From IMG/VR virus record IMGVR_UViG_3300030117_007673, positions 62,001 to 126,000 of that record: 64,000 bases of DNA; one strand, given 5' to 3'. Position 1 is the stretch's first letter; every line of letters begins with the position of its first letter. Positions 8,458 through 62,381 of the stretch are shown here, piece after piece. The notes beneath the pieces were generated by a model. That model worked only from the letters and a program-made list of their open reading frames with translations. It did not search any database and was not told where the DNA came from. Position numbers and translations under genes: made by a program. Source of the DNA: a virus.

Positions 8458-8523
8458 ATGGATGCTGCAGCCGGTGCGGCGTTGTTGCAAAGGAGCCTGA
8501 CTGTATGTCTAAACTATTATTAA
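8458..8523 (+). CDS. Possible 21-residue leader ORF upstream of prohead protease
   Basis: An ATG-started ORF of 21 codons with an Ala/Leu-rich product beginning MDAAAGAALL, running across the Shine-Dalgarno and start of the protease gene in a different frame. It fills most of the only gap (65 bases) in this part of the head operon. No convincing ribosome binding site precedes it. It may be a translated leader, a tiny core peptide, or chance. Confidence 0.2.
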   Translation: MDAAAGAALLQRSLTVCLNYY

Positions 8524-9116
8524 GAGAATACTATGAGCTTTGTGAAGGTGGCGTATGCCAAGACTTTTTAACTGAAGCCGAGAAAAGAATGGTTAAGGAA
8601 GGACATGTATTCCTTACCGGCGTTATGCAAAGAGCAGACGCTAGAAATGGCAATGGCCGCGTATATCCAGGGCCTATCTTGGAAAGAGAGACTAATAACT
8701 ATAAAAAGCTTGTAAAAGAAAGAAGAGCGCTTGGAGAACTTGATCACCCAGACGATTCAGTTATCAATCTCAAAAACGCTTCTCATCTTGTGACTGATAT
8801 TTGGTGGGACCAAGGAGCGGTAATGGGTAAAATTCAAGTTCTTAATACTCCTTCAGGTCAAGTTTTAAAAGAGCTTGTTAACGCTGGAGTCAAGCTTGGA
8901 ATTTCTTCGAGAGGAATGGGCTCCGTTCATGAATCAAATGGAAATACGATTGTTGAAGACGATTTTCAATTGATTTGCTTTGATATGGTTTCTGAGCCTT
9001 CAACAACCGGAGCTTTTATGACACCACAACAAATTAATGAAAGCACAGTAAAGGGTGTGTTCACAAAGGCAGATAGAATCAATCGCGCATTGAATGATAT
9101 TCTGAGGGGAAAATGA
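8505..9116 (+). CDS. gp21: Prohead core protease (T4 gp21-like)
   Basis: Serine protease of the T4 gp21 family that matures the prohead by cutting scaffold, capsid and internal proteins. In the 203-residue sequence the expected catalytic histidine lies in GELDHP (His81), the nucleophilic serine in GISSRG (Ser134/135) and a candidate acidic residue in CFDMVSEPS (Asp160). The stretch MQRADARNGNGRVYP is typical of the family's N-terminus. AAGGAG is placed 9 bases before the ATG. It overlaps the next gene by 4 bases (ATGA). The protease matters for the putative capsid-targeting leaders noted elsewhere in this window. Confidence 0.93.
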   Translation: MSKLLLREYYELCEGGVCQDFLTEAEKRMVKEGHVFLTGVMQRADARNGNGRVYPGPILERETNNYKKLVKERRALGELDHPDDSVINLKNASHLVTDIWWDQGAVMGKIQVLNTPSGQVLKELVNAGVKLGISSRGMGSVHESNGNTIVEDDFQLICFDMVSEPSTTGAFMTPQQINESTVKGVFTKADRINRALNDILRGK

Positions 9117-27657: not shown

Positions 27658-29025
27658 ATGGCAGAAACACTTTCATTATTTCGAAACAAAAAATTTTATA
27701 AGCAATACTCTTATCCACTGGTGGGTACGAAGGGGGGAAGCTTCCCAAAGCCAATGGATTTTTGGTACGAGAAGACTTTATATGGAAGAGTAGACGAAAG
27801 ACAAAATCCTATTTATATTTCGATGGTTGATACAGCGAGGTTTAAACAAATACACCCTAGTAAACCAATCTTTATTTTAAATTTTGTTGCCGATGCATTC
27901 TTTTCTTTTCAGAGGCATTTTAGAAAAGCGATATCTACTGGGAGGCTAAATAAAAATAGTGTCTTGGTAGATTTAGAAGCTGAAAAAGGCTTTGTAGATA
28001 TGCGAAGTTCTTATGGGGACTACAGGCAAACTGTATCAGATGTCATGGTTGACAGTTTCTTGTCCTTGCCACAGCATAATGATGACATAGAAAATTTTGA
28101 TGATTTTTTGGCCAAGTTTGTTGAATTTGTAAAGAAATATTCTAACCTAATGCCTTTTACCCAATCTGGTTATATCAAGTCGCAATATTGCACTCCTCTA
28201 ATTAGCGGGTTAGTAATCGAGATAGGTAATGAAGATCATACAGATGACACAGTAAAGGAGAGGTGGCTTTCGGATCCTAATTACGAATTTTATGCCAAAG
28301 AATCTAGAAAATTTGGATTCATAGTAGACAAAAACGCACCATGGAGATTGGTTGCAAATATTATGTCGCCAAGAATGCAAAATTTTATGCGTAAGATTGA
28401 CTGGGAAGCTTTGTTGAGAGAAGTTTCAATAATTCAGCCGAATAAAGATTATGGCTCAAAAGCTCTTTTCACTGGGCAGTTATCCGCCGGCGGGAATTAT
28501 ACAGAGTCTCCTAGGAGTTTGTTCAATCATTACTATACCCGCTCTTACAAAACAGATGTACCTGAGATAAAGCAACTGTTGCTTGAAACTTATGAAAAGT
28601 TTTATGATAAATACCCAACATTGAAGAAGATTAAAACAAAAATGTGTTCCGATTTAAACAAAATATCCAGCAAGACGATTGCCAGACCCGAACCGCAGGA
28701 TGTCGCAACTTTGTTGAATACAAGTTCCAATCTTCAATGGACTCAAACATGTTTCGAGATCAGGCTTATAGAGGAAAAAAGAAATATAAATGATAGAGCT
28801 TTTGAACGCATAATGACAACCTTTAAAACATTGTCTGCTCAAGAGGAGAAAAATAAGGTTGACAAAGGTTTCCCATTGTGGTATCTTAATCAAGCAGTGA
28901 AAGGTTTTCCCAAGCTTGTTTTCCCAGTTACCGCAATCGAGCTTATGCCTACTTTCGCTAATCCGATTATTTTTAAGCCTTTCACCCCTATTAGTATTCC
29001 CGAGATGGCACCAAAAGAAGTTTAA
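27658..29025 (+). CDS. Hypothetical structural-region protein
   Basis: A 455-residue protein rich in aromatic residues (LFRNKKFYKQYSYPLVG at the start) without a recognised domain. It is the last gene before the replication block and shares direction and spacing with the baseplate genes (TAGGAGA before the ATG). Similar long proteins with this N-terminus occur in marine myoviruses, to my knowledge unassigned. A baseplate, fibre-assembly or virion role is a guess from position. Confidence 0.7.
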   Translation: MAETLSLFRNKKFYKQYSYPLVGTKGGSFPKPMDFWYEKTLYGRVDERQNPIYISMVDTARFKQIHPSKPIFILNFVADAFFSFQRHFRKAISTGRLNKNSVLVDLEAEKGFVDMRSSYGDYRQTVSDVMVDSFLSLPQHNDDIENFDDFLAKFVEFVKKYSNLMPFTQSGYIKSQYCTPLISGLVIEIGNEDHTDDTVKERWLSDPNYEFYAKESRKFGFIVDKNAPWRLVANIMSPRMQNFMRKIDWEALLREVSIIQPNKDYGSKALFTGQLSAGGNYTESPRSLFNHYYTRSYKTDVPEIKQLLLETYEKFYDKYPTLKKIKTKMCSDLNKISSKTIARPEPQDVATLLNTSSNLQWTQTCFEIRLIEEKRNINDRAFERIMTTFKTLSAQEEKNKVDKGFPLWYLNQAVKGFPKLVFPVTAIELMPTFANPIIFKPFTPISIPEMAPKEV

Positions 29026-29028
29026 AAA

Positions 29029-30228
29029 TTGTTATTTCAAACATTAGACAATAAACATAAATGCATAGGAGTATATTATGACGGAAATCTTTACTTCAAT
29101 AATGACCTTCCTGAAGGAATTAGTGAGACGTGGAGCTATGCATCTTTCCTCTCAGATAGAGAGGTTAGATACGGCCATCTGCAGTGCGCTGGTAAGTCTC
29201 TTGATGATGTTTGCCCCGATAATCTAAAAGATGACTGGGAAGAGATCAATAAAAAACTAAAAGCATATATGAGATCTCTTTTTATATCAAAAGTGTCTTT
29301 AGATGACAATTGCTTTTACGACCTAGTGCCGGAAAAGTTTTTATTGGAATTCTGTGAAATAAAAAACAAGATCACAAAACACGTTTTTCAAAATTTTTTG
29401 CCGCCCAAAAATTTGAGATTTTTGACTTTATTAACAAAGGTAGTCGAAGACATAAATCAGCAAAAACTCAATATCGACATTGACGAATTCAAGCCACATC
29501 TTGCTGAGTATAAGGCGAGACAATGGAGAAAGAAAATTGAAAAGCTAGAGCCTTATATCAGGTATGACATATTTGGTACAAAAACAGGAAGATTGACAAC
29601 AAAGAAATATAGTTTTCCAATTCTTACTTTTCCGAAAAAATATCGTTCTATTGTTAAGCCAAATAACGACTTATTTGTCGAGCTGGATTATAACGGCGCA
29701 GAGTTGAGAACTTTGTTGGCTTTATCAGACAAGAAACAACCAACGATGGACATTCATGAGTGGAACAGACGTTATTTGCCGGGGAAAAAGATTTCATCAC
29801 GGCAAGAGGTTAAAAATTCTATTTTTGCTTGGCTGTACAATTCTAAAAAACACCCAAATGAAGAACTGTTGAGAAAAATGTATGACAAGGACAAAGTTTT
29901 GAATGACTATTGGGATGGTGAGATGGTCCGAACTTGCTTCAATAGAGAGATACCAGCCGATAAACATCATGCGTTGAACTACATTATTCAGAGCACCTGC
30001 GCGGATCTTATTTTGCAAAAAACGATTAAGATTTATGATATATTAAAAGATAGGAAATCTAATATTGCCTTTTGTGTGCATGACAGCATAGTTATTGACT
30101 TGCACGCAGATGATAAACACCTTATGAAAGATATTATAGATGAATTCGCAAGCACTAGATTTGGAAGGTTCAAAACAAGCGTTAAGACTGGAAAAGATTT
30201 TGGAAACTTGAAGGAGCTTATATCGTAA
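29029..30228 (+). CDS. Compact family A DNA polymerase (polymerase domain only)
   Basis: A 399-residue protein with family A motifs: TGRLTT (residues 186-191), motif A ELDYNGAELR (catalytic Asp220), motif B with Arg258, Lys262 and Tyr270 (RQEVKNSIFAWLYN; the usual Gly after Tyr is Asn) and motif C CVHDSIVID (His351, Asp352). Catalytic aspartates are intact. There is no 3'-5' exonuclease domain and the N-terminal 180 residues are unfamiliar. The separate 5'-3' exonuclease gene downstream could supply the missing Pol I activity. Start is TTG with a poor ribosome site; no in-frame ATG exists nearby. T4-type phages usually use a family B enzyme. Confidence 0.85.
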   Translation: MLFQTLDNKHKCIGVYYDGNLYFNNDLPEGISETWSYASFLSDREVRYGHLQCAGKSLDDVCPDNLKDDWEEINKKLKAYMRSLFISKVSLDDNCFYDLVPEKFLLEFCEIKNKITKHVFQNFLPPKNLRFLTLLTKVVEDINQQKLNIDIDEFKPHLAEYKARQWRKKIEKLEPYIRYDIFGTKTGRLTTKKYSFPILTFPKKYRSIVKPNNDLFVELDYNGAELRTLLALSDKKQPTMDIHEWNRRYLPGKKISSRQEVKNSIFAWLYNSKKHPNEELLRKMYDKDKVLNDYWDGEMVRTCFNREIPADKHHALNYIIQSTCADLILQKTIKIYDILKDRKSNIAFCVHDSIVIDLHADDKHLMKDIIDEFASTRFGRFKTSVKTGKDFGNLKELIS

Positions 30229-31073
30229 TGGACACTGTGATTGGGTTGGGTCAAGCAGGCTGTAATATTGCTGATGAGTTTGCAAAATATGACCAATATA
30301 AAATATTCAAGATTGATTGTGGTTTGGAAGGGTTACAACAAGAAGGGGTATATGATATGCCATGGCAGGACAGCCCGGAGAGATATGAGGAAAAATGTCC
30401 GGATTTAAGTAAATTTTTTAAAGATGTGACAGGCGAGGTGCTTTTTGTTTTAGGAGGCTCCGGTAATATTTCTGGAGCGGCTCTTTCTATATTAAAACAC
30501 CTGAAACATTGCGATATAAATATATTGTATATTAGGCCCGATTTAGAGTCGATTACAGTAACTAAAGTAAGGCAAGAGTGGGTTGTTTTCAATATTCTTC
30601 AGGAATACGCCAGATCCGGAGTCTTCAAAAGAATTTATCTAGTCGACAATTCAAAGGTGGAAGAATACTTAGGAGATGTTCCTGTAATAGGGTATTATGA
30701 AAGACTAAACAATATGATCGCATCAACGCTTCACATGATCAATGTGTACGACCATATTGAGCCAGTTGTCGATACTTTCTCCAGGCCATTGTCTGGTCGA
30801 AGAGTTTCAACAATTGGATTTTATGATGAAAAAAATAATGAAAATAAATTATTTTATTTACTTGACAATGTTGGCGAAATGCGCTATTATTATGCTATCA
30901 ATAAAGAAAAGTTAGAAACTGATGGAGATATTTTGAAGAAAATTAGAGAACAGATTAAGAGCGAAGTAGAGACAAGTTACGGCATATTCTCAACCAATTA
31001 TGACCAAGATTATGTCTACACAGTTGCACACTCGTCAGATATTCAACAACAAAAAAGCGAAAAAAACGCTTGA
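30228..31073 (+). CDS. Divergent tubulin/FtsZ-like GTPase homologue
   Basis: A 281-residue protein whose landmarks run in the order of FtsZ: VIGLGQAGCN (residues 4-13; FtsZ GVGGGGGN), a strand FKIDCGLEGLQ (FtsZ NTDAQAL), the signature-loop equivalent VLGGSGNISGAAL (74-86; FtsZ GGGTGTGAAP), INILYIRPD (VAVVTKPF), IYLVDNSKVEEYLG (TIPNDKLLKV) and a helix ending MINVYDHIEPVVD where FtsZ has the T7 loop. The GTP-binding loop is poorer in glycine than usual. It is shorter than FtsZ and lacks a clear acidic C-tail. Coupled to the polymerase gene by TAATG. Phage tubulins (PhuZ) centre and carry phage DNA and capsids; a similar role is inferred only. Confidence 0.65.
   Translation: MDTVIGLGQAGCNIADEFAKYDQYKIFKIDCGLEGLQQEGVYDMPWQDSPERYEEKCPDLSKFFKDVTGEVLFVLGGSGNISGAALSILKHLKHCDINILYIRPDLESITVTKVRQEWVVFNILQEYARSGVFKRIYLVDNSKVEEYLGDVPVIGYYERLNNMIASTLHMINVYDHIEPVVDTFSRPLSGRRVSTIGFYDEKNNENKLFYLLDNVGEMRYYYAINKEKLETDGDILKKIREQIKSEVETSYGIFSTNYDQDYVYTVAHSSDIQQQKSEKNA
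30862..30890 (+). promoter_or_regulatory. Possible sigma70 promoter inside the tubulin-like gene
   Basis: TTGACA, 17 bases, TATTAT. It would direct transcription toward the SSB gene about 270 bases downstream, in addition to the better promoter nearer that gene. Being inside a coding region it could be chance. Confidence 0.35.
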
Positions 31074-31098
31074 CAAACAGAATTCATTGTGTTATGAT
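31070..31098 (+). promoter_or_regulatory. Sigma70-type promoter for the SSB operon
   Basis: TTGACA, 17-base spacer, TATGAT in the 84-base gap before the SSB gene. The -35 overlaps the stop codon of the tubulin-like gene. Confidence 0.8.
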
Positions 31099-31157: not shown

Positions 31158-31898
31158 ATGGGTATTGATATGGAAAAAATGCGCGCCAGACGGCAAGCGC
31201 TAGATAACAAAAATGGCAATGGGCGAGAGAACTTTTGGCGTCCCCAAGATGGGGAGACAACGGTTCGAATCGTTCCTACAGCTGACGGCGATCCTTTTAA
31301 GGATTTCTGGTTTCATTACAACGTTGGTAATGCACCAGGATTCCTAAGTCCAAAGAAGAACTTTGGAGAAGAGGATGCACTTGATTCTTTTGTTCGTAAG
31401 CTCTATAAGGAGGGTACGGAGGAGAGTATTAAGATGGCCAAATCTTTGTCTGCTAGACAGCGCTTCTTTGCCCCCGTGGTAGTTCGCGGAGAAGAAGATA
31501 AGGGCGTGCGTATTTGGGGCTTTGGCAAGATGGCTTATGAAAAGCTGCTAAATCTTGTTCTTAACCCTGAATATGGCGATATTACAGATTCTGAAACAGG
31601 AACAGATCTTGTAATTCGCTATGGCAAACCGGCAGGGGCTTCTTTCCCTCAAACGGAGATTACCCCTCGCCGCCGGCCCTCACCTTTGTGCGAGGATGAA
31701 TCACAATGTGCGGAATGGTTGGACACTATTCCAAACCTTGATGAACTCTTTGAGCGCAAAAGCCCAGGAGAGGTCGAAGCTATTCTTGATGAATATTTAT
31801 CGGGTAATGTCGATGATAATTCTTCTGATAACGTAGAGAAATATAATGCCGAATCTGGAGATTCGGTAGATAAGGCTTTTTCCGAGCTTCTATCGTAA
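31158..31898 (+). CDS. Single-stranded DNA-binding protein (T4 gp32-like)
   Basis: A 246-residue protein with basic N-terminus, an OB-fold core (TTVRIVPTADGDPFKDFWFHY, shown here by its start TTVRIVPTADGD) and a long acidic C-terminal tail ending DKAFSELLS, the layout of gp32-type SSBs in which the acidic tail recruits replication proteins. The Cys/His zinc-binding motif of T4 gp32 is not evident. AAGGAG precedes the ATG and a strong sigma70-type promoter lies upstream, so it is probably abundant early. It heads a block with UvsX and nucleases. Residue CEDESQC may form a metal or disulfide element. Confidence 0.85.
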   Translation: MGIDMEKMRARRQALDNKNGNGRENFWRPQDGETTVRIVPTADGDPFKDFWFHYNVGNAPGFLSPKKNFGEEDALDSFVRKLYKEGTEESIKMAKSLSARQRFFAPVVVRGEEDKGVRIWGFGKMAYEKLLNLVLNPEYGDITDSETGTDLVIRYGKPAGASFPQTEITPRRRPSPLCEDESQCAEWLDTIPNLDELFERKSPGEVEAILDEYLSGNVDDNSSDNVEKYNAESGDSVDKAFSELLS

Positions 31899-31965: not shown

Positions 31966-32259
31966 ATGAAAATTTATACTACTATTTTACTAACGATGTT
32001 TATCGGTGCATGCACTGGTAATACAAGCGTTGTCGAGAAGCCAGCTGGCGCTCAACTAGACCAGAAATATGAAGTGGAAGGTCAATCTGGCAGCTCTGTT
32101 GGGATTTCTCCCGAGTTGGAGGAAAAGATACAGAAGGCAATTAAAGAAAGAGCACCTAAAAGTGCTAATTCGTCAGAAGTTGTTCCAACAGTTGTTGTAA
32201 CACCTGAAGTCGAACCTGATGTTGAAACATCAGTTACCAAAGTCCCAGAAAAGGAGTAA
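31966..32259 (+). CDS. Small phage lipoprotein
   Basis: A 97-residue protein with a lipoprotein signal: KIYTTILLTMFIGAC, in which IGAC is the lipobox and Cys16 the lipidation site. The mature part is polar, with a helix (SPELEEKIQKAIKER) and a Val/Pro/Glu-rich C-terminus, probably unstructured. AAAGGAGG gives a strong ribosome site. It lies between SSB and UvsX, an odd place for a membrane protein. Phage lipoproteins commonly block superinfection or act in lysis (Rz1); early location favours superinfection exclusion, but this is inference. Confidence 0.75.
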   Translation: MKIYTTILLTMFIGACTGNTSVVEKPAGAQLDQKYEVEGQSGSSVGISPELEEKIQKAIKERAPKSANSSEVVPTVVVTPEVEPDVETSVTKVPEKE

Positions 32260-32271
32260 TAGGATTTAATT

Positions 32272-33441
32272 ATGGCGAGAAAAGCAAAAAATAAAGCAGG
32301 CAAACTTTCTATGTCAGATATGCGTAGCCTTATCAACAAAAAGGCGGGGATGTCTGTTGCACACGATTTAACTAATAATAACCCAACAGAGGTGAAGGAT
32401 TGGATTCCAACCGGATCTCGATGGCTGGATTCTATTATTTGTCGTGGAAAGCTCACCGGTATTCCAGTAGGGAAAGTTGTTGAAATCGCTGGTTTGGAAG
32501 CGACAGGGAAGTCTTACATGGCTGCTCAGGTCGCTGCAAATGCCCAGAAGATGGGTGTTGATGTAATCTATTTTGATTCTGAATCAGCAATCGATCCAAC
32601 TTTCTTGGAAAGAACCGGATGTGACCTAGAAAACTTGCTTTATATTCAAGCTCAGAGCGTTGAGTTCGTGCTTGAAACAATTGAAGATCTTCTCGCTAAT
32701 AATGATAATCGTATGCTCTTTATTTGGGACAGTCTTGCTCTGACTCCATCCGTTAGTGATGTCGAAGGCGATTTCAACCCTCTCTCATCAATGGCCGTAA
32801 AGGCCAGAATACTCGCCAAGGGAATGTCCAAACTAACTGTTCCGATTGCGAATAGTCAGTCTACATTCTTAGTTCTTAATCAACTTAAGACAAACATCAC
32901 TAGAAGCCCCTCTGAGGCTATGGTTGAGCCTTATATGACGCCTGGTGGAAAAGCCATGATCTATGCGTACTCTCTCCGTATTTGGCTTACAGGAAGAAAA
33001 TCAAAGGCCAGCTATGTCCTCGACGAAAGAGGGTTTAGGGTGGGGTCAGAGGTCAAGGCTACTCTCAAAAAGAGTCGCTTTGGCACCCAAGGAAGACAAG
33101 CAAGTTTTAAAATTTTATGGGGAGAACAAATCGGTGTTCAAGATGAAGAGAGTTGGTTCGAAGCAATCAAGGGATCAGAACATCTTAAACAAAGTGGAGC
33201 GTGGTATACGCTTCTATATAAAGATGGCTCAGAAGATAAGTTTCAGCCATCAAAATGGAAAAATATGTTGACAAACGAGAAGTTTCGTGATAGAGTATTA
33301 GATATAATGGATGAAGAGGTCATCCTTAAATTTGATAAACGACAAGGCGAAGCAGCAGACTTTTATGATATTGAAAACGAAGATAACGAAGAAAACACGC
33401 AGCTATCTGTCGTTGGCCAAGAGGATGGCTCTGCAGAGTGA
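32272..33441 (+). CDS. uvsX: UvsX/RecA-type recombinase
   Basis: A 389-residue RecA-superfamily strand-exchange ATPase. Walker A is GLEATGKS (residues 74-81), the catalytic Glu region is YFDSESA (100-106) and Walker B is MLFIWDSLA (148-156); VLNQLKTNITRSP corresponds to the RecA loop 2/motif region. T4-type phages use UvsX for recombination-dependent replication and repair. The C-terminus is acidic. It starts 13 bases after the lipoprotein gene and its 3' end overlaps the deaminase gene in another frame. Confidence 0.93.
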   Translation: MARKAKNKAGKLSMSDMRSLINKKAGMSVAHDLTNNNPTEVKDWIPTGSRWLDSIICRGKLTGIPVGKVVEIAGLEATGKSYMAAQVAANAQKMGVDVIYFDSESAIDPTFLERTGCDLENLLYIQAQSVEFVLETIEDLLANNDNRMLFIWDSLALTPSVSDVEGDFNPLSSMAVKARILAKGMSKLTVPIANSQSTFLVLNQLKTNITRSPSEAMVEPYMTPGGKAMIYAYSLRIWLTGRKSKASYVLDERGFRVGSEVKATLKKSRFGTQGRQASFKILWGEQIGVQDEESWFEAIKGSEHLKQSGAWYTLLYKDGSEDKFQPSKWKNMLTNEKFRDRVLDIMDEEVILKFDKRQGEAADFYDIENEDNEENTQLSVVGQEDGSAE

Positions 33442-45454: not shown

Positions 45455-48400
45455 ATGACTAAAATCCCTTTTGTTGGATTACACGCACACAGCGGTTTGA
45501 GTTTGAATGATGGTCTAGGATACCCCCAAGACCATATGGATTTCGCCTATGAGAATGGCTCAGATGCCCTTGCTTTGACCGATCATGGACATATGAATGG
45601 TCTACCCTATCAAGTGCTGCACGCACGCAAAATGAAGGCAGAGGGCAAAAACTTTAAGCCGATCTTTGGAGTTGAAGCGTACTTCAATCCTTCTCTAGAG
45701 CAATGGCGAGAAGAATATGAAAAGGCAAAACAAGAAAAGAAAAAGGGAATTAAGAAGGATATAGAACTATCTATTGAGGACGAGAGGGCTTCAAAACAGA
45801 AGGTTGTAGATATACTCAAAAAGAGGAATCACCTAATTCTGATCGCTCAGAATCAAACGGGCTTGAACAATATATTCAAGCTTGTGTCGGAGAGTTATAA
45901 AGATGAAAACTTTTATAGATACCCTAGAATTGATTATAAGCTTCTTGACTTATATAGTGATGGAGTTATTGCCTCTAGTGCTTGTCTTGGTGGTGTTTAT
46001 GCTGGTGATTATTGGGACTATCGTGACGTTGGCAGTGACGCTATTCTAGACGCTATGCGTCAGACAACGAAGCGTATGAAGGACATATTTGGAGAACGGT
46101 GGTTCGGTGAGATTCAATGGAACAATATTCCTGAACAGCACGAACTTAACCAGTATATTATTCAGGTTTGTAAGGAATATGATGTAGAGCTTATTTCAAC
46201 TGCTGACAGTCATTACCCAACTCCTGACGCTTGGAAGGATAGAGAACTATATAAAAGGATTGGATGGCTGGGTAAGGGTGGTCTGCCAGAATACATGTCT
46301 TCTGAGCTTCCCTCTGGAGTTGAAGAAATTGGGTATGAGCTTTATCCCAAAAATGGCGAACAGATGTGGGAATCGTACCACAAGTATTCAAAACTGGTTG
46401 GTTTTGATTATGATGATGAGCTAGTTATGGATTCGATTAAAAGAACAGACTACATTGCTCATGATCTTATTGAAGATTTTATGCCCGATAATGAAGTTAG
46501 ACTTCCAAGTTTTGTTGTGCCCGCAGGCAAGACAGACATTCAAGCTTTGACAGAGGACTGCCTGACAGGTCTGAAAGAAAAAGGCCTAGGCGATAAGGAA
46601 GGGTACATTGATAGGCTCAAGGAAGAACTCTTTGTTATTCGGGACCGTGGATTTGCCAAGTATTTCTTGACTATGAAGGCGATTGCAGACAAAGCTGCCT
46701 CTGTTCAACTGACAGGTCCCGGTCGAGGTTCTGCTGCAGGTTCTCTTGTAGCTTACGTACTTGATATCACACAGGTTGATCCTATCAAGCACGGGCTTTT
46801 GTTCTCAAGGTTCTTGCGTAAGGATGCAACAGATTATCCTGATATTGATTATGATGTAAGCGATCCAATGGAAGTGAAGGAAATGTTGATCGAAGAATGG
46901 GGAGACGACACAGTTGCTCCTATTTCAAACTACAACACCCTTCAGTTGCGTTCGCTTATCAAAGATGTCTCAAAGTTCTATGATGTGCCGTTTACAGAAG
47001 TTAATACTGTAACTGGCAAGATGATCTTCGAAGCAACCCCGATTGCAAAGAAGGTCCATGGTATTAAGTCTGGTGTTTATACTCCAACCTTCGAGGAGGT
47101 TATGGAATACTCGGAGACTTTGAAGAAGTTCCTTAACAAGTACCCTCACGTCAAAACTCATATTGAGGCCCTTCTAGGGCAGGTTAGGAGCGTCTCTAGG
47201 CACGCAGGAGGCGTCGTTGTAGGCGAGAACCTAGACAAGTGGATGCCGCTTGTAAACAGTGGCGGCGTGCGGCAAACCCCTTGGTCTGAGGGGCAGAATG
47301 TAAGACATCTTGAACCTCTTGGCTTTATTAAGTTTGATATTCTTGGTCTGGCTTCTTTGAGAATGATTGAAGGTTCTATCAGGCATATTCTGAAAAGACA
47401 TCATGGCATCGACGATCCAACTTTCGAGGATGTAAAGAAGTTTTACAATGAAAAGCTTCATCCCGATGTTATCAACTTCAATGACCAGAATGTATACAGG
47501 AATGTGTTTCAGAAAGGTAATTGGACAGGTATCTTCCAGTTTACAGAAAAAGGAGCACAGGAGTTTTGTAAAAAGGCGAAGCCGAAAAATTTGATTGATA
47601 TTTCTGCTATCACTTCAATCTATCGCCCAGGTCCTCTTGGAGCGGATGTTGATAAATCTTATGTGGATGCAAAGAGAGATCCAGGAAGTGTAGAATATAT
47701 CAACAAACTTGTAAAGGATGTTACAAAAGAAACTTATGGCTTCTTGATTTTCCAAGAACAGATTGCTCTACTGGCTCACAAGTTGGGTAAAGACATTTCT
47801 CTTGATGAAGGCAACGCCCTACGAAAGTATCTAACTAAGAAAGGCTCTGGCGATGCTACAAAGAAGAAAGAAAAGATTTATAGCAAGTTCGTTGAAGGCT
47901 GTATTGAAAAGAAACTATCGATGGGCCAAGCCGACAAGCTTTGGCAGACGTTCGAATACTTCTCTGGATATGGGTTCAACAAGTCGCACGCTGTTAGTTA
48001 CAGTATTCTTAGTTACCAGTGCGCATGGCTGCTGAATTACTATTCTGTTGAATGGACCGCAGCCTTCCTTGATAAAGAACCAGAGAGTAGAAAAGAAAAG
48101 GCTATCAACATTGCTAAGTCGATGGGCTTCAAGATTCAACCTCTTGACATTAATTCTTCTGGAACTGTGTGGGAGATCTCAGATGACGGTAAAACTCTTA
48201 TCCAACCTTTGACTTCAATCAAGGGTCTTGGAGACAAGGCTATTGAACAGATTTTGAACCATAGGCCGTTTAATACTGTGGAAGAATTACTTTTTAATGA
48301 CGATATCGTCTACAGCAAACTAAATAAAAAGGCACTTGATGTTCTTGTGCGTAGTGGGACCTTAGACAGCTTGATTGATGATAGATTCTCAGGAAGGAAA

Positions 48401-48862
48401 CATTTCTGGTCTGCGGCAGTTGTTGACCGGCCTAAGAAAGAAAAGAAGCTACATGAAAACATTGAGCTTTACAGACCTGAAGGAGACTTCACCGTTGAGG
48501 AGAGAATTGCCAACAAGGCGACTTTGACTGGTGTTTTTCCAATTGAACTTGTCTTGAATGACGAAATCAAAGCGAAGCTGGATGAATACTTTGTTCCGCC
48601 CATCGCTGATTATGACAAAGATCTGCAAGTAGTGTGGTTTATTCCTCGAGAGATAATTAAAAGAAAGACCAAGAATGGTAAAGAATATTGGATTGTCAAT
48701 GTAATTGATTCAACAAGTAACCAAACTACGATTAGATGTTGGGGTGTAAAAGAGAAAGATGTTATTCATATTAATCGGCCTTACATGTGTAAGATTGACT
48801 ACAGTGAGCAATGGGGTTTCTCTTCGAGATCCATAAAACATAATTGGAGATTGTTGGGATAA
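45455..48862 (+). CDS. dnaE: DNA polymerase III alpha subunit (family C, DnaE-type)
   Basis: An 1135-residue replicative polymerase with full domain order: PHP domain (VGLHAHSGLSLNDG, ALALTDHGHMNGL), palm with GPGRGSAAGSLVAYVL and catalytic aspartates in YPDIDYDVSDP, the third Asp region FDILGLASLRMIE, fingers (IYRPGPLGADVD, YGFLIFQEQIALLAH, YGFNKSHAVSYSILSY), a helix-hairpin-helix (SIKGLGDKAIEQIL) and a C-terminal OB-like region. Catalytic residues appear intact. It is close to bacterial DnaE in length (about 1160). It has its own promoter. Encoding a family C replicase is unusual for T4-type phages, and the genome also carries a family A enzyme. No clamp or clamp loader is seen in the window. 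Confidence 0.95.
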   Translation: MTKIPFVGLHAHSGLSLNDGLGYPQDHMDFAYENGSDALALTDHGHMNGLPYQVLHARKMKAEGKNFKPIFGVEAYFNPSLEQWREEYEKAKQEKKKGIKKDIELSIEDERASKQKVVDILKKRNHLILIAQNQTGLNNIFKLVSESYKDENFYRYPRIDYKLLDLYSDGVIASSACLGGVYAGDYWDYRDVGSDAILDAMRQTTKRMKDIFGERWFGEIQWNNIPEQHELNQYIIQVCKEYDVELISTADSHYPTPDAWKDRELYKRIGWLGKGGLPEYMSSELPSGVEEIGYELYPKNGEQMWESYHKYSKLVGFDYDDELVMDSIKRTDYIAHDLIEDFMPDNEVRLPSFVVPAGKTDIQALTEDCLTGLKEKGLGDKEGYIDRLKEELFVIRDRGFAKYFLTMKAIADKAASVQLTGPGRGSAAGSLVAYVLDITQVDPIKHGLLFSRFLRKDATDYPDIDYDVSDPMEVKEMLIEEWGDDTVAPISNYNTLQLRSLIKDVSKFYDVPFTEVNTVTGKMIFEATPIAKKVHGIKSGVYTPTFEEVMEYSETLKKFLNKYPHVKTHIEALLGQVRSVSRHAGGVVVGENLDKWMPLVNSGGVRQTPWSEGQNVRHLEPLGFIKFDILGLASLRMIEGSIRHILKRHHGIDDPTFEDVKKFYNEKLHPDVINFNDQNVYRNVFQKGNWTGIFQFTEKGAQEFCKKAKPKNLIDISAITSIYRPGPLGADVDKSYVDAKRDPGSVEYINKLVKDVTKETYGFLIFQEQIALLAHKLGKDISLDEGNALRKYLTKKGSGDATKKKEKIYSKFVEGCIEKKLSMGQADKLWQTFEYFSGYGFNKSHAVSYSILSYQCAWLLNYYSVEWTAAFLDKEPESRKEKAINIAKSMGFKIQPLDINSSGTVWEISDDGKTLIQPLTSIKGLGDKAIEQILNHRPFNTVEELLFNDDIVYSKLNKKALDVLVRSGTLDSLIDDRFSGRKHFWSAAVVDRPKKEKKLHENIELYRPEGDFTVEERIANKATLTGVFPIELVLNDEIKAKLDEYFVPPIADYDKDLQVVWFIPREIIKRKTKNGKEYWIVNVIDSTSNQTTIRCWGVKEKDVIHINRPYMCKIDYSEQWGFSSRSIKHNWRLLG

Positions 48863-55400: not shown

Positions 55401-56972
55401 ATGACAAAGAAATATGACTCAGGCCCTTCTCTGCAAGAGAAGATTCTGAAAGGTATTGACACTCTGGCTGACAACGTAGCGTCTACGCTCGGGCCTAGAG
55501 GTCGGAATGTTATCTTACACAAGAAGGGCTCCAATCCGATTATCACAAAGGATGGCGTGACTATTTCAAAGTTTGTTGATCTTGAAGATCCTTTTGAAAA
55601 TGTAGGAGCGCAAATTATCAAACAAGTCGCTGCGCGAACAGCAGATGAGTGTGGGGATGGCACAACAACCTCCACAGTGTTGGCCCGGGCATTGTTGCGA
55701 GAGACACAGAAATACATCGTAGCTGGCTCTTCTCCTGTAGAGATGAAGAGAGGCATGGACAAGGCTGTTTTGGCCATTGTAGGGCGATTAGAGGAGATGT
55801 CAAAGCCTATTTCTAGTGTGGAGGACATCGAACACATTGCGACTATCTCTGCAAACGGGGATAAGACAATTGGCAAATTGATCGCTAGCGCAGTTGAAGC
55901 TGCCGGCAAAGACGGTTCTATAAGTATTGAAGAAGCGCGCTCTGTAGAGACGAGCCTGGATCTTGTCGAAGGATTCAGATTTGATTCCGGCTATGTGTCT
56001 TCTCAATTTATCACAGATGAGCGTAGAGGCGCTGTAAAATATAACGAACCTTTGGTTCTGGTGACAGATTATGACATCGAGGCTGTTGATCAACTCCTCC
56101 CGGTGTTGGAGTTCGTTGCTAGAGAGAACAGGCCATTGGTTATTGTTTGTGAGAACATTGAAGGACAAGCTTTGGCTGCAGTTATCATGAACGCCATTAG
56201 GGGAACAATGAAGGTGACAGCTGTAAAGGCTCCACGTTATGGAGAGGAGAGAAGAAATATTCTTAAGGATTTGGCATTGTCTGTTGGCGCGGCTTTTGTT
56301 TCCAGAGATTCAGGGTTGCAGTTGAGAGACACAAAACTGTCTCATCTTGGAACTGCAAAGACTGTGGATATAGTAAAAAATGGAACTACTTTCGTTGGAG
56401 GGAAGGGCGACTTCGAAGAGATTGATAAGAAGATTGAGGCTTTGAAAGTTGAACTAGAACAGACAGATTCCCTGTATGAGTGTGAAAGGATTCAAGATAG
56501 AATCACAAGACTAGCTAGCGGGATTGCAATTATTCGAGTTGGTGGCGCTACGGAAATCGAAATGATCGAGAAGAGACATAGAGTTGAAGATGCTCTAGAA
56601 GCTGTTCATTCAGCACAGCAAGAGGGAATTGTTCCCGGTGGTGGTGTAGCTATAGTTAGAGCTTCTGCCAATCTGGAACTTGAGCTTGATAACGAGGATC
56701 AGGAGATTGGAGCAAAAATTGTATCCGAAGCTGTGAAGTCTCCAATTAAACAGATGGCTAAAAACGCAGGTGAGTCTCAGGATCTTATTTTGTATGAAGT
56801 TTTGTCACTGCATGGTAACGATGGTAGAGACTTTACGACTGGAGAAATTGTAGATATGTTAGAAGTGGGCATCATTGACCCCGCAAAAGTTACTAAAGCA
56901 GCGATTCAAAATGCTGTCTCCGCTGTATCGACATTAATTACTACAAATTATGCAATTATCGAGAACGATTAG
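55401..56972 (+). CDS. groEL: GroEL chaperonin
   Basis: A 523-residue 60-kDa chaperonin, essentially full length. ATPase residues are in place: GPRGRNVILHKKGS (nucleotide loop), KDGVTISK (Asp51), ECGDGTTTSTVL (Asp86) and the late Asp of VEDALEAVHSAQQ; the hinge VPGGGVA is conserved. The glycine/methionine GGM tail of bacterial GroEL is missing; it ends IIEND. With the phage GroES-like gene it would form a dedicated folding chamber, for example for capsid or other proteins. Few phages encode GroEL. It has a strong sigma70 promoter and no adjoining groES. Confidence 0.95.
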   Translation: MTKKYDSGPSLQEKILKGIDTLADNVASTLGPRGRNVILHKKGSNPIITKDGVTISKFVDLEDPFENVGAQIIKQVAARTADECGDGTTTSTVLARALLRETQKYIVAGSSPVEMKRGMDKAVLAIVGRLEEMSKPISSVEDIEHIATISANGDKTIGKLIASAVEAAGKDGSISIEEARSVETSLDLVEGFRFDSGYVSSQFITDERRGAVKYNEPLVLVTDYDIEAVDQLLPVLEFVARENRPLVIVCENIEGQALAAVIMNAIRGTMKVTAVKAPRYGEERRNILKDLALSVGAAFVSRDSGLQLRDTKLSHLGTAKTVDIVKNGTTFVGGKGDFEEIDKKIEALKVELEQTDSLYECERIQDRITRLASGIAIIRVGGATEIEMIEKRHRVEDALEAVHSAQQEGIVPGGGVAIVRASANLELELDNEDQEIGAKIVSEAVKSPIKQMAKNAGESQDLILYEVLSLHGNDGRDFTTGEIVDMLEVGIIDPAKVTKAAIQNAVSAVSTLITTNYAIIEND

Positions 56973-61968: not shown

Positions 61969-62381
61969 ACAAAATAATTCATAATTGGAGAAATTATTTA
62001 ATGGAAAAAGATTTAAGAGCAGCGATGGCGGTAGTTTTAAATGATAAGAAAGATGTGTTAATATTAAAAAGGATGGAAGCCGCCGGATGGATGCCTGGCA
62101 AATGGGGACTTCCAGGTGGCCACATTGAGAAAGGAGAATTATCCGAAGACGCAGCTGCGCGAGAGACTAAAGAAGAGACGAATTTGTCTTTAAGCAATTT
62201 AAAGCAACTTGTGCAACGCGGTCAGGCAATGATCTATTGTTCGAACTCATATGCTGGAGATGTCGAAATAGACTTTGAACATACCGATTGGGCATGGGCA
62301 CCCTATGATGAATTAGACAATTATGATACAACGCCCGGATTAAAAGATACAGTTAGGCTAGCACTGGAGAAGCTAAAATGA
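61965..62381 (+). CDS. Nudix hydrolase with N-terminal targeting-like leader
   Basis: A 138-residue Nudix enzyme. The box GGHIEKGELSEDAAARETKEE (shown by GGHIEKGE and RETKEE, residues about 51-71) carries the metal-binding glutamates. The first 14 residues, NKIIHNWRNYLMEK, precede the catalytic fold and resemble the leader of the next gene. Starting at GTG 61965 keeps this leader; an ATG at 62001 with GGAG upstream would give only the Nudix domain. Nudix enzymes hydrolyse nucleoside diphosphate derivatives such as oxidised dNTPs or RNA caps. Coupled to both neighbours. Confidence 0.85.
   Translation: MNKIIHNWRNYLMEKDLRAAMAVVLNDKKDVLILKRMEAAGWMPGKWGLPGGHIEKGELSEDAAARETKEETNLSLSNLKQLVQRGQAMIYCSNSYAGDVEIDFEHTDWAWAPYDELDNYDTTPGLKDTVRLALEKLK

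Follow-up and report, generated by a model that had tools for sequence, protein, structure and literature searches.

A diverged protein family of the tubulin superfamily, apparently dedicated to a DNA polymerase of phages

The stretch of DNA analysed here, called the window below, comprises 64,000 nucleotides (positions 62,001 to 126,000) of the IMG/VR virus record IMGVR_UViG_3300030117_007673, which has 132,130 bases. The replication block of this phage harbours a gene for a divergent protein with a predicted tubulin/FtsZ fold, named TUB in the following, which lies between the genes for a short family A DNA polymerase (PolA) and a single-strand DNA-binding protein (SSB). The features of the locus, in window coordinates, are:

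28859 to 28887, plus strand: sigma-70 promoter-like site (TTGACA-17-TATCTT), about 140 nt before PolA
29029 to 30228, plus strand: PolA, short family A DNA polymerase (399 aa) that shares an operon with TUB invariably
30228 to 31073, plus strand: TUB, divergent tubulin/FtsZ-fold protein of 281 aa, recognised from its open reading frame, family alignment, AlphaFold2 models and dN/dS
31070 to 31098, plus strand: sigma-70 promoter-like site (TTGACA-17-TATGAT), which overlaps the TUB stop codon and starts the SSB unit
31158 to 31898, plus strand: SSB, the next recognised gene past TUB in nearly all loci
32272 to 33441, plus strand: UvsX-type recombinase

The virion genes of the window phage belong to T4-like families, including terminase (phrog_2), portal (phrog_213), gp23-type capsid (phrog_138) and sheath (phrog_23), which confirms the T4-like virus presumed in the initial annotation. 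The presence of gp23-type capsid and sheath families is T4-type, in contrast to the nucleus-forming jumbo phages that carry PhuZ. The nearest annotated phages by capsid protein include Flavobacterium phage immuto, Microcystis phage Mel-JY01 and Rhodothermus phage RM378. No relative of TUB was found in the polA-ssb region of immuto and Mel-JY01, nor in the first 50 kb of RM378.

The start codon of TUB shares one nucleotide, the final base, with the stop codon of PolA (TAATG), and the coupled start proposed earlier from the sequence was thus borne out. A first search of IMG/VR returned 393 relatives (pattern-matched stretches), and a second one at least 592 stretches. Mean column identity was 48% in an alignment of 40 divergent members, and the median dN/dS was 0.05 in the 8 pairs compared. 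Given these many relatives, the column identity and the dN/dS, TUB is a real gene and no chance open reading frame. TUB was present in 16 of 16 large records, the window genome and 15 of 15 others, the latter picked for carrying TUB; the fairer figure comes from the search that starts from PolA, in which TUB was present in 60 of the 60 loci with room. Far from being a one-virus oddity, TUB is universal in a large group of T4-like marine viruses that are uncultured, and a tubulin-fold protein is accordingly a core gene of this phage group.

The TUB family escapes the Pfam cut-off, PHROGs and the annotated phages. A tblastn search of 50,697 phage records, those of PhuZ phages among them, gave no relative. 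PDB sequence searches with the single TUB protein and with the family profile gave nothing relevant, and no published description of the family was found in literature searches. Its altered signature loops explain why the usual searches missed the family. The sole match in a bacterial genome, in the WOR-3 MAG CP070664.1 (L089:2514-7873), is a piece of phage replication DNA between runs of N that most likely got there through a scaffolding error, and a cellular origin of TUB was rejected on this ground.

In each of the 145 loci with room, PolA lies directly upstream of TUB; downstream, the first recognised gene is SSB in 160 out of 161 loci. The catalytic residues of PolA are invariant among 11 divergent members. 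The divergence of TUB follows that of PolA with a partial correlation of 0.44 (half-sampling range 0.29-0.63), compared with about 0.10 for SSB or UvsX in the same analysis of four neighbouring genes. Since TUB adjoins PolA and SSB alike, adjacency alone poorly explains a co-divergence restricted to PolA. Sigma-70-like sites were found within 100 nt before PolA in 80 of 150 loci (shuffled sequences gave 3.6), and 75 of 152 loci have one between TUB and SSB (shuffled sequences gave 7.2); just before TUB, such sites were present in only 2 of 72 loci. As promoter-like sites precede PolA and SSB and rarely TUB, PolA and TUB look like a bicistronic unit under its own conserved promoter-like site.

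By reading of the loci, many of them, such as L057, L139 and L162, possess a small MazG-like gene with the motif NKLVRDKIPEI between PolA and TUB. No TubR-like partner was seen among the neighbours that were read, the genes inserted between PolA and TUB looking like MazG-type pyrophosphohydrolases on reading, and those after TUB being small and membrane-like or of no assigned kind.

AlphaFold2 predicted the window TUB from 12 family sequences with a pLDDT of 89.8 and a pTM of 0.90, three of the five models of this job being poor (58-67). A divergent member, predicted from 40 sequences, reached 91.6-92.6 across all five models, and the order of structural elements was essentially the same in both proteins. 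The models show the GTPase-domain sandwich, the core helix H7 and a C-terminal activation domain. In Foldseek against the PDB, the matches of the window TUB started with CetZ (3zid), TubZ (4ei7) and FtsZ, the best E-value being 3.4e-13; the list of the divergent member was headed by FtsZ (6e-13). All 50 PDB matches listed for each model were FtsZ, CetZ, TubZ or tubulin, with E-values of about 1e-12 to 1e-10 and TM-scores by query of up to 0.73. In the viral structure library, an uncultured phage provided the best match, a protein annotated as FtsZ, and PhuZ of Noxifer was among the seven matches with E < 0.001.

Sequence profiles alone do not link TUB to FtsZ. Pfam Tubulin (PF00091) scored 14.5 bits where 33 are required, over residues 4-26 only. 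With hhalign, the TUB family reached a probability of 2% against FtsZ; against PhuZ it reached 42%, in a match centred on the T1 loop, so that the profile comparison proposed earlier gave a weak match on the PhuZ side and no link on the FtsZ side. A second tubulin of the same phages, used as positive control, joined FtsZ at 95.5%; against this value, the superfamily membership of TUB rests on predicted structure. Judged by its models, TUB is a highly diverged family of the tubulin/FtsZ superfamily. The fold claimed in the initial annotation is thereby supported in two AlphaFold2 models, and the listed Foldseek matches to the PDB come from the tubulin superfamily only. Membership in another Rossmann family was rejected, as the Pfam matches to TrkA_N, MurD-like and dehydrogenase domains were stray and weak, in one or two members each.

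Residue conservation was computed over 174 sequences of the family, and the relevant elements of TUB, all on the plus strand of the window, are:

30240 to 30263: T1 loop, residues 5-12 (IGLGQAGC); G6, G8 and G11 100%, C12 94%
30453 to 30479: T4 phosphate loop, residues 76-84 (GGSGNISGA), degenerate compared with GGGTGTG, placed by conservation and profile alignment
30600 to 30617: end of H5, residues 125-130 (QEYARS), with Q125, R129 and S130 invariant; helix 111-129 in the model
30648 to 30650: N141, the asparagine of T6, 95% conserved and falling on N165 of E. coli FtsZ in the profile alignment
30693 to 30752: core helix H7, residues 156-175, placed by model, conservation and profile alignment
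30759 to 30761: E178, a possible T7 remnant and the sole semi-conserved acid after H7 (E 55%, D 20%)

The T1 loop of the family reads GLGxAGC and is of the superfamily type GxGGxG. The sequence GGG, TG, S or T, and G has been named as the signature of the tubulin/FtsZ superfamily (PMC2875224). This T4 signature, GGGTG(S/T)G, is gone from the TUB family, with GxSGx(I/V)SG in its place. The glycine-poor loop GGSGNISG (residues 76-83) pointed out in the initial annotation proved to be a family trait (G77 91%, G79 94%, S82 87%, G83 83%). In FtsZ, the residues N165, F182 and N186 touch the guanine base. Besides N141, the H7 residues Y157 (67%) and N161 (97%) of TUB fall on E. coli FtsZ F182 and N186, in a profile alignment of low overall probability. 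No canonical T7 motif NxDxxD/E was found after H7 in the 174 sequences, and the placement of T7 and of E178 depends on the alignment. Of the seven landmarks described earlier as running in correct order, T1, a degenerate T4, T6 and H7 are present in that order, while the catalytic T7 was not confirmed. Residues Q125, R129, S130, H169 and M170 are 99-100% conserved, and at the end of H7, H169, M170 and N172 reach 97-100%. Judging by fold topology, H5 and H7 would both be expected to end on the face opposite the nucleotide.

Three out of the 16 large records encode a second tubulin/FtsZ-like protein of 346-402 aa, and the window genome does not. Its genes are:

L263, 2155 to 3363, minus strand: second tubulin
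L264, 2387 to 3481, minus strand: second tubulin
L265, 2305 to 3345, minus strand: second tubulin

This second tubulin belongs to the same virus group and the same superfamily as TUB. Unlike TUB, it is sporadic, lies away from PolA, is linked to FtsZ by profile, and carries the canonical GGGGGTGS and a DSKD-type T7. The family comprises 223 related stretches in IMG/VR, and no relative was found in annotated phage records. In L263 the gene adjoins one resembling the gene at window positions 8505-9116. The second tubulin could do a cytoskeletal job in its carriers.

Phage tubulins have been held to be a mark of Chimalliviridae or nucleus-forming jumbo phages, plus a handful elsewhere (PMC11835377). 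Similar to PhuZ and the TubZ of phiKZ, TUB is phage-encoded and combines a tubulin/FtsZ fold with a T1 loop, around which the weak profile match lies. TUB is shorter, with 281 aa compared with 314-344 aa in eight PhuZ proteins. PhuZ possesses a catalytic aspartate motif in T7 and a long acidic C-terminal tail (PMC3678025), whereas TUB lacks this T7 motif and has about 12 residues past the last strand in place of a long tail. TUB also belongs to a T4-like phage and is paired with PolA, instead of being carried by a nucleus-forming jumbo phage. With FtsZ, TUB shares the overall fold (TM-scores by query of 0.71-0.73 to several S. aureus FtsZ structures) and, in the low-probability profile alignment, the base-contact asparagines. 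It differs from FtsZ in a shorter C-terminal domain, in its changed T4 signature and in having no canonical T7, and identity in structural alignments is 12-18%. CetZ and TubZ are the first two structural matches of the window TUB, and the searches of PDB sequences gave no family link to them. TubZ normally sits with TubR, whereas TubR was not found among the TUB neighbours read. The divergent FtsZ-superfamily families FtsZl1 and FtsZl2, defined by genome context, are cellular and linked to membrane remodelling (PMC2875224); they keep GGGTG(S/T)G, whereas the TUB family is viral and has lost this motif.

The invariable partner PolA points to a role of TUB in replication, be it in place of a spindle function or alongside one. 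We propose that TUB would be the dedicated partner of the short PolA, both proteins being produced from one bicistronic unit by coupled translation. TUB would bind a guanine nucleotide in the pocket formed by T1, T4, T6 and H7 and self-associate head to tail, its far face (R129, S130, H169, M170, N172) packing against the nucleotide of the neighbouring subunit. The resulting assembly may gather or position PolA and the replicating DNA. With no canonical acid pair in T7, TUB would be expected to hydrolyse its nucleotide slowly or not at all and to form a stable assembly instead of a dynamic one. We give about an even chance to TUB being a PolA partner of tubulin fold that binds a guanine nucleotide and forms oligomers where replication takes place; nucleotide binding, assembly, contact to PolA and the role in replication are inferred. 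The stronger form, a stable and stoichiometric polymerase partner, and thus a tubulin inside the replication machinery of widespread marine T4-like phages, is tentative and on balance rather doubtful. PolA and TUB, as neighbouring genes, may share a history without contact between their products, and nucleotide binding could be lost, judging from the degenerate T4 and T7 sequences. The obligate pairing of TUB with PolA connects a cytoskeletal fold to DNA replication in a concrete and testable way.

The initial annotation had suggested a spindle or partition function. A cytoskeleton of the PhuZ or TubZ type would use GTP to drive dynamic filaments, by which the phage DNA is centred, segregated or moved, and TUB would lie in the replication block merely as an early gene. 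The fold shared with TubZ and CetZ, which head the Foldseek list of the window TUB, the Noxifer PhuZ among the viral structural matches and the conserved nucleotide pocket are consistent with such a system. Nevertheless, TUB lacks a canonical T7 and a long C-terminal tail, its T4 loop is degenerate, and it is obligately tied to PolA; no TubR-like small gene was present among the neighbours read, no relative was found by tblastn in the records of PhuZ phages, and some of the same phages already possess a second, canonical tubulin. The spindle or partition role was therefore not borne out, the profile match to PhuZ being weak and centred on T1 and the invariable partner being PolA. We consider this explanation unlikely, and the analogy with PhuZ possible, but not favoured.

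Less probable still, the tubulin fold may have been recruited into a non-polymerising accessory subunit, a monomer that has given up assembly and serves PolA as a nucleotide sensor or clamp-like factor. The small size of TUB, its reduced C-terminal domain, the altered T4 and T7, the pairing with PolA, and models in which the helix between H7 and the next strand is missing agree with a monomer. However, the ends of H5 and H7, which would form the far face, are as invariant as the pocket, as an assembling tubulin would keep them. The weakest candidate is antagonism of host FtsZ, with TUB as a decoy of tubulin fold that would cap the host protein or co-polymerise with it and halt division during infection; phages attack FtsZ, and a poison subunit would fit an FtsZ-like fold that has a face with a pocket but shows no recognisable T7. 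TUB, however, is paired and co-diverges with PolA rather than with host-takeover genes and is under strong purifying selection (dN/dS about 0.05). The reading of TUB as an oligomerising partner of PolA is preferred over these alternatives.

The genome that encodes the short PolA also possesses a 1135-aa DnaE-type polymerase with a PHP domain (window positions 45455-48862), whose family is present in 13 of the 15 other large records. Further small genes were found around SSB. Between TUB and SSB, the loci L009, L010, L013, L089, L143 and L151 harbour small membrane-protein-like open reading frames with conserved GHCE or GRCE and CQCE. Between SSB and UvsX, the window encodes a small lipoprotein-like open reading frame (31966-32259), which few related loci have. 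A conserved protein of 130-150 aa is encoded near SSB in immuto, Mel-JY01 and an uncultured 484-kb phage (L181:1346-1801, L182:5675-6064, L183:3764-4171). In immuto and Mel-JY01 it occupies the slot between PolA and SSB, where TUB sits in the window group; homology of this slot protein to TUB was unsupported (hhalign probability 0.2%). The window also encodes a phage GroEL-type chaperonin at positions 55401-56972.
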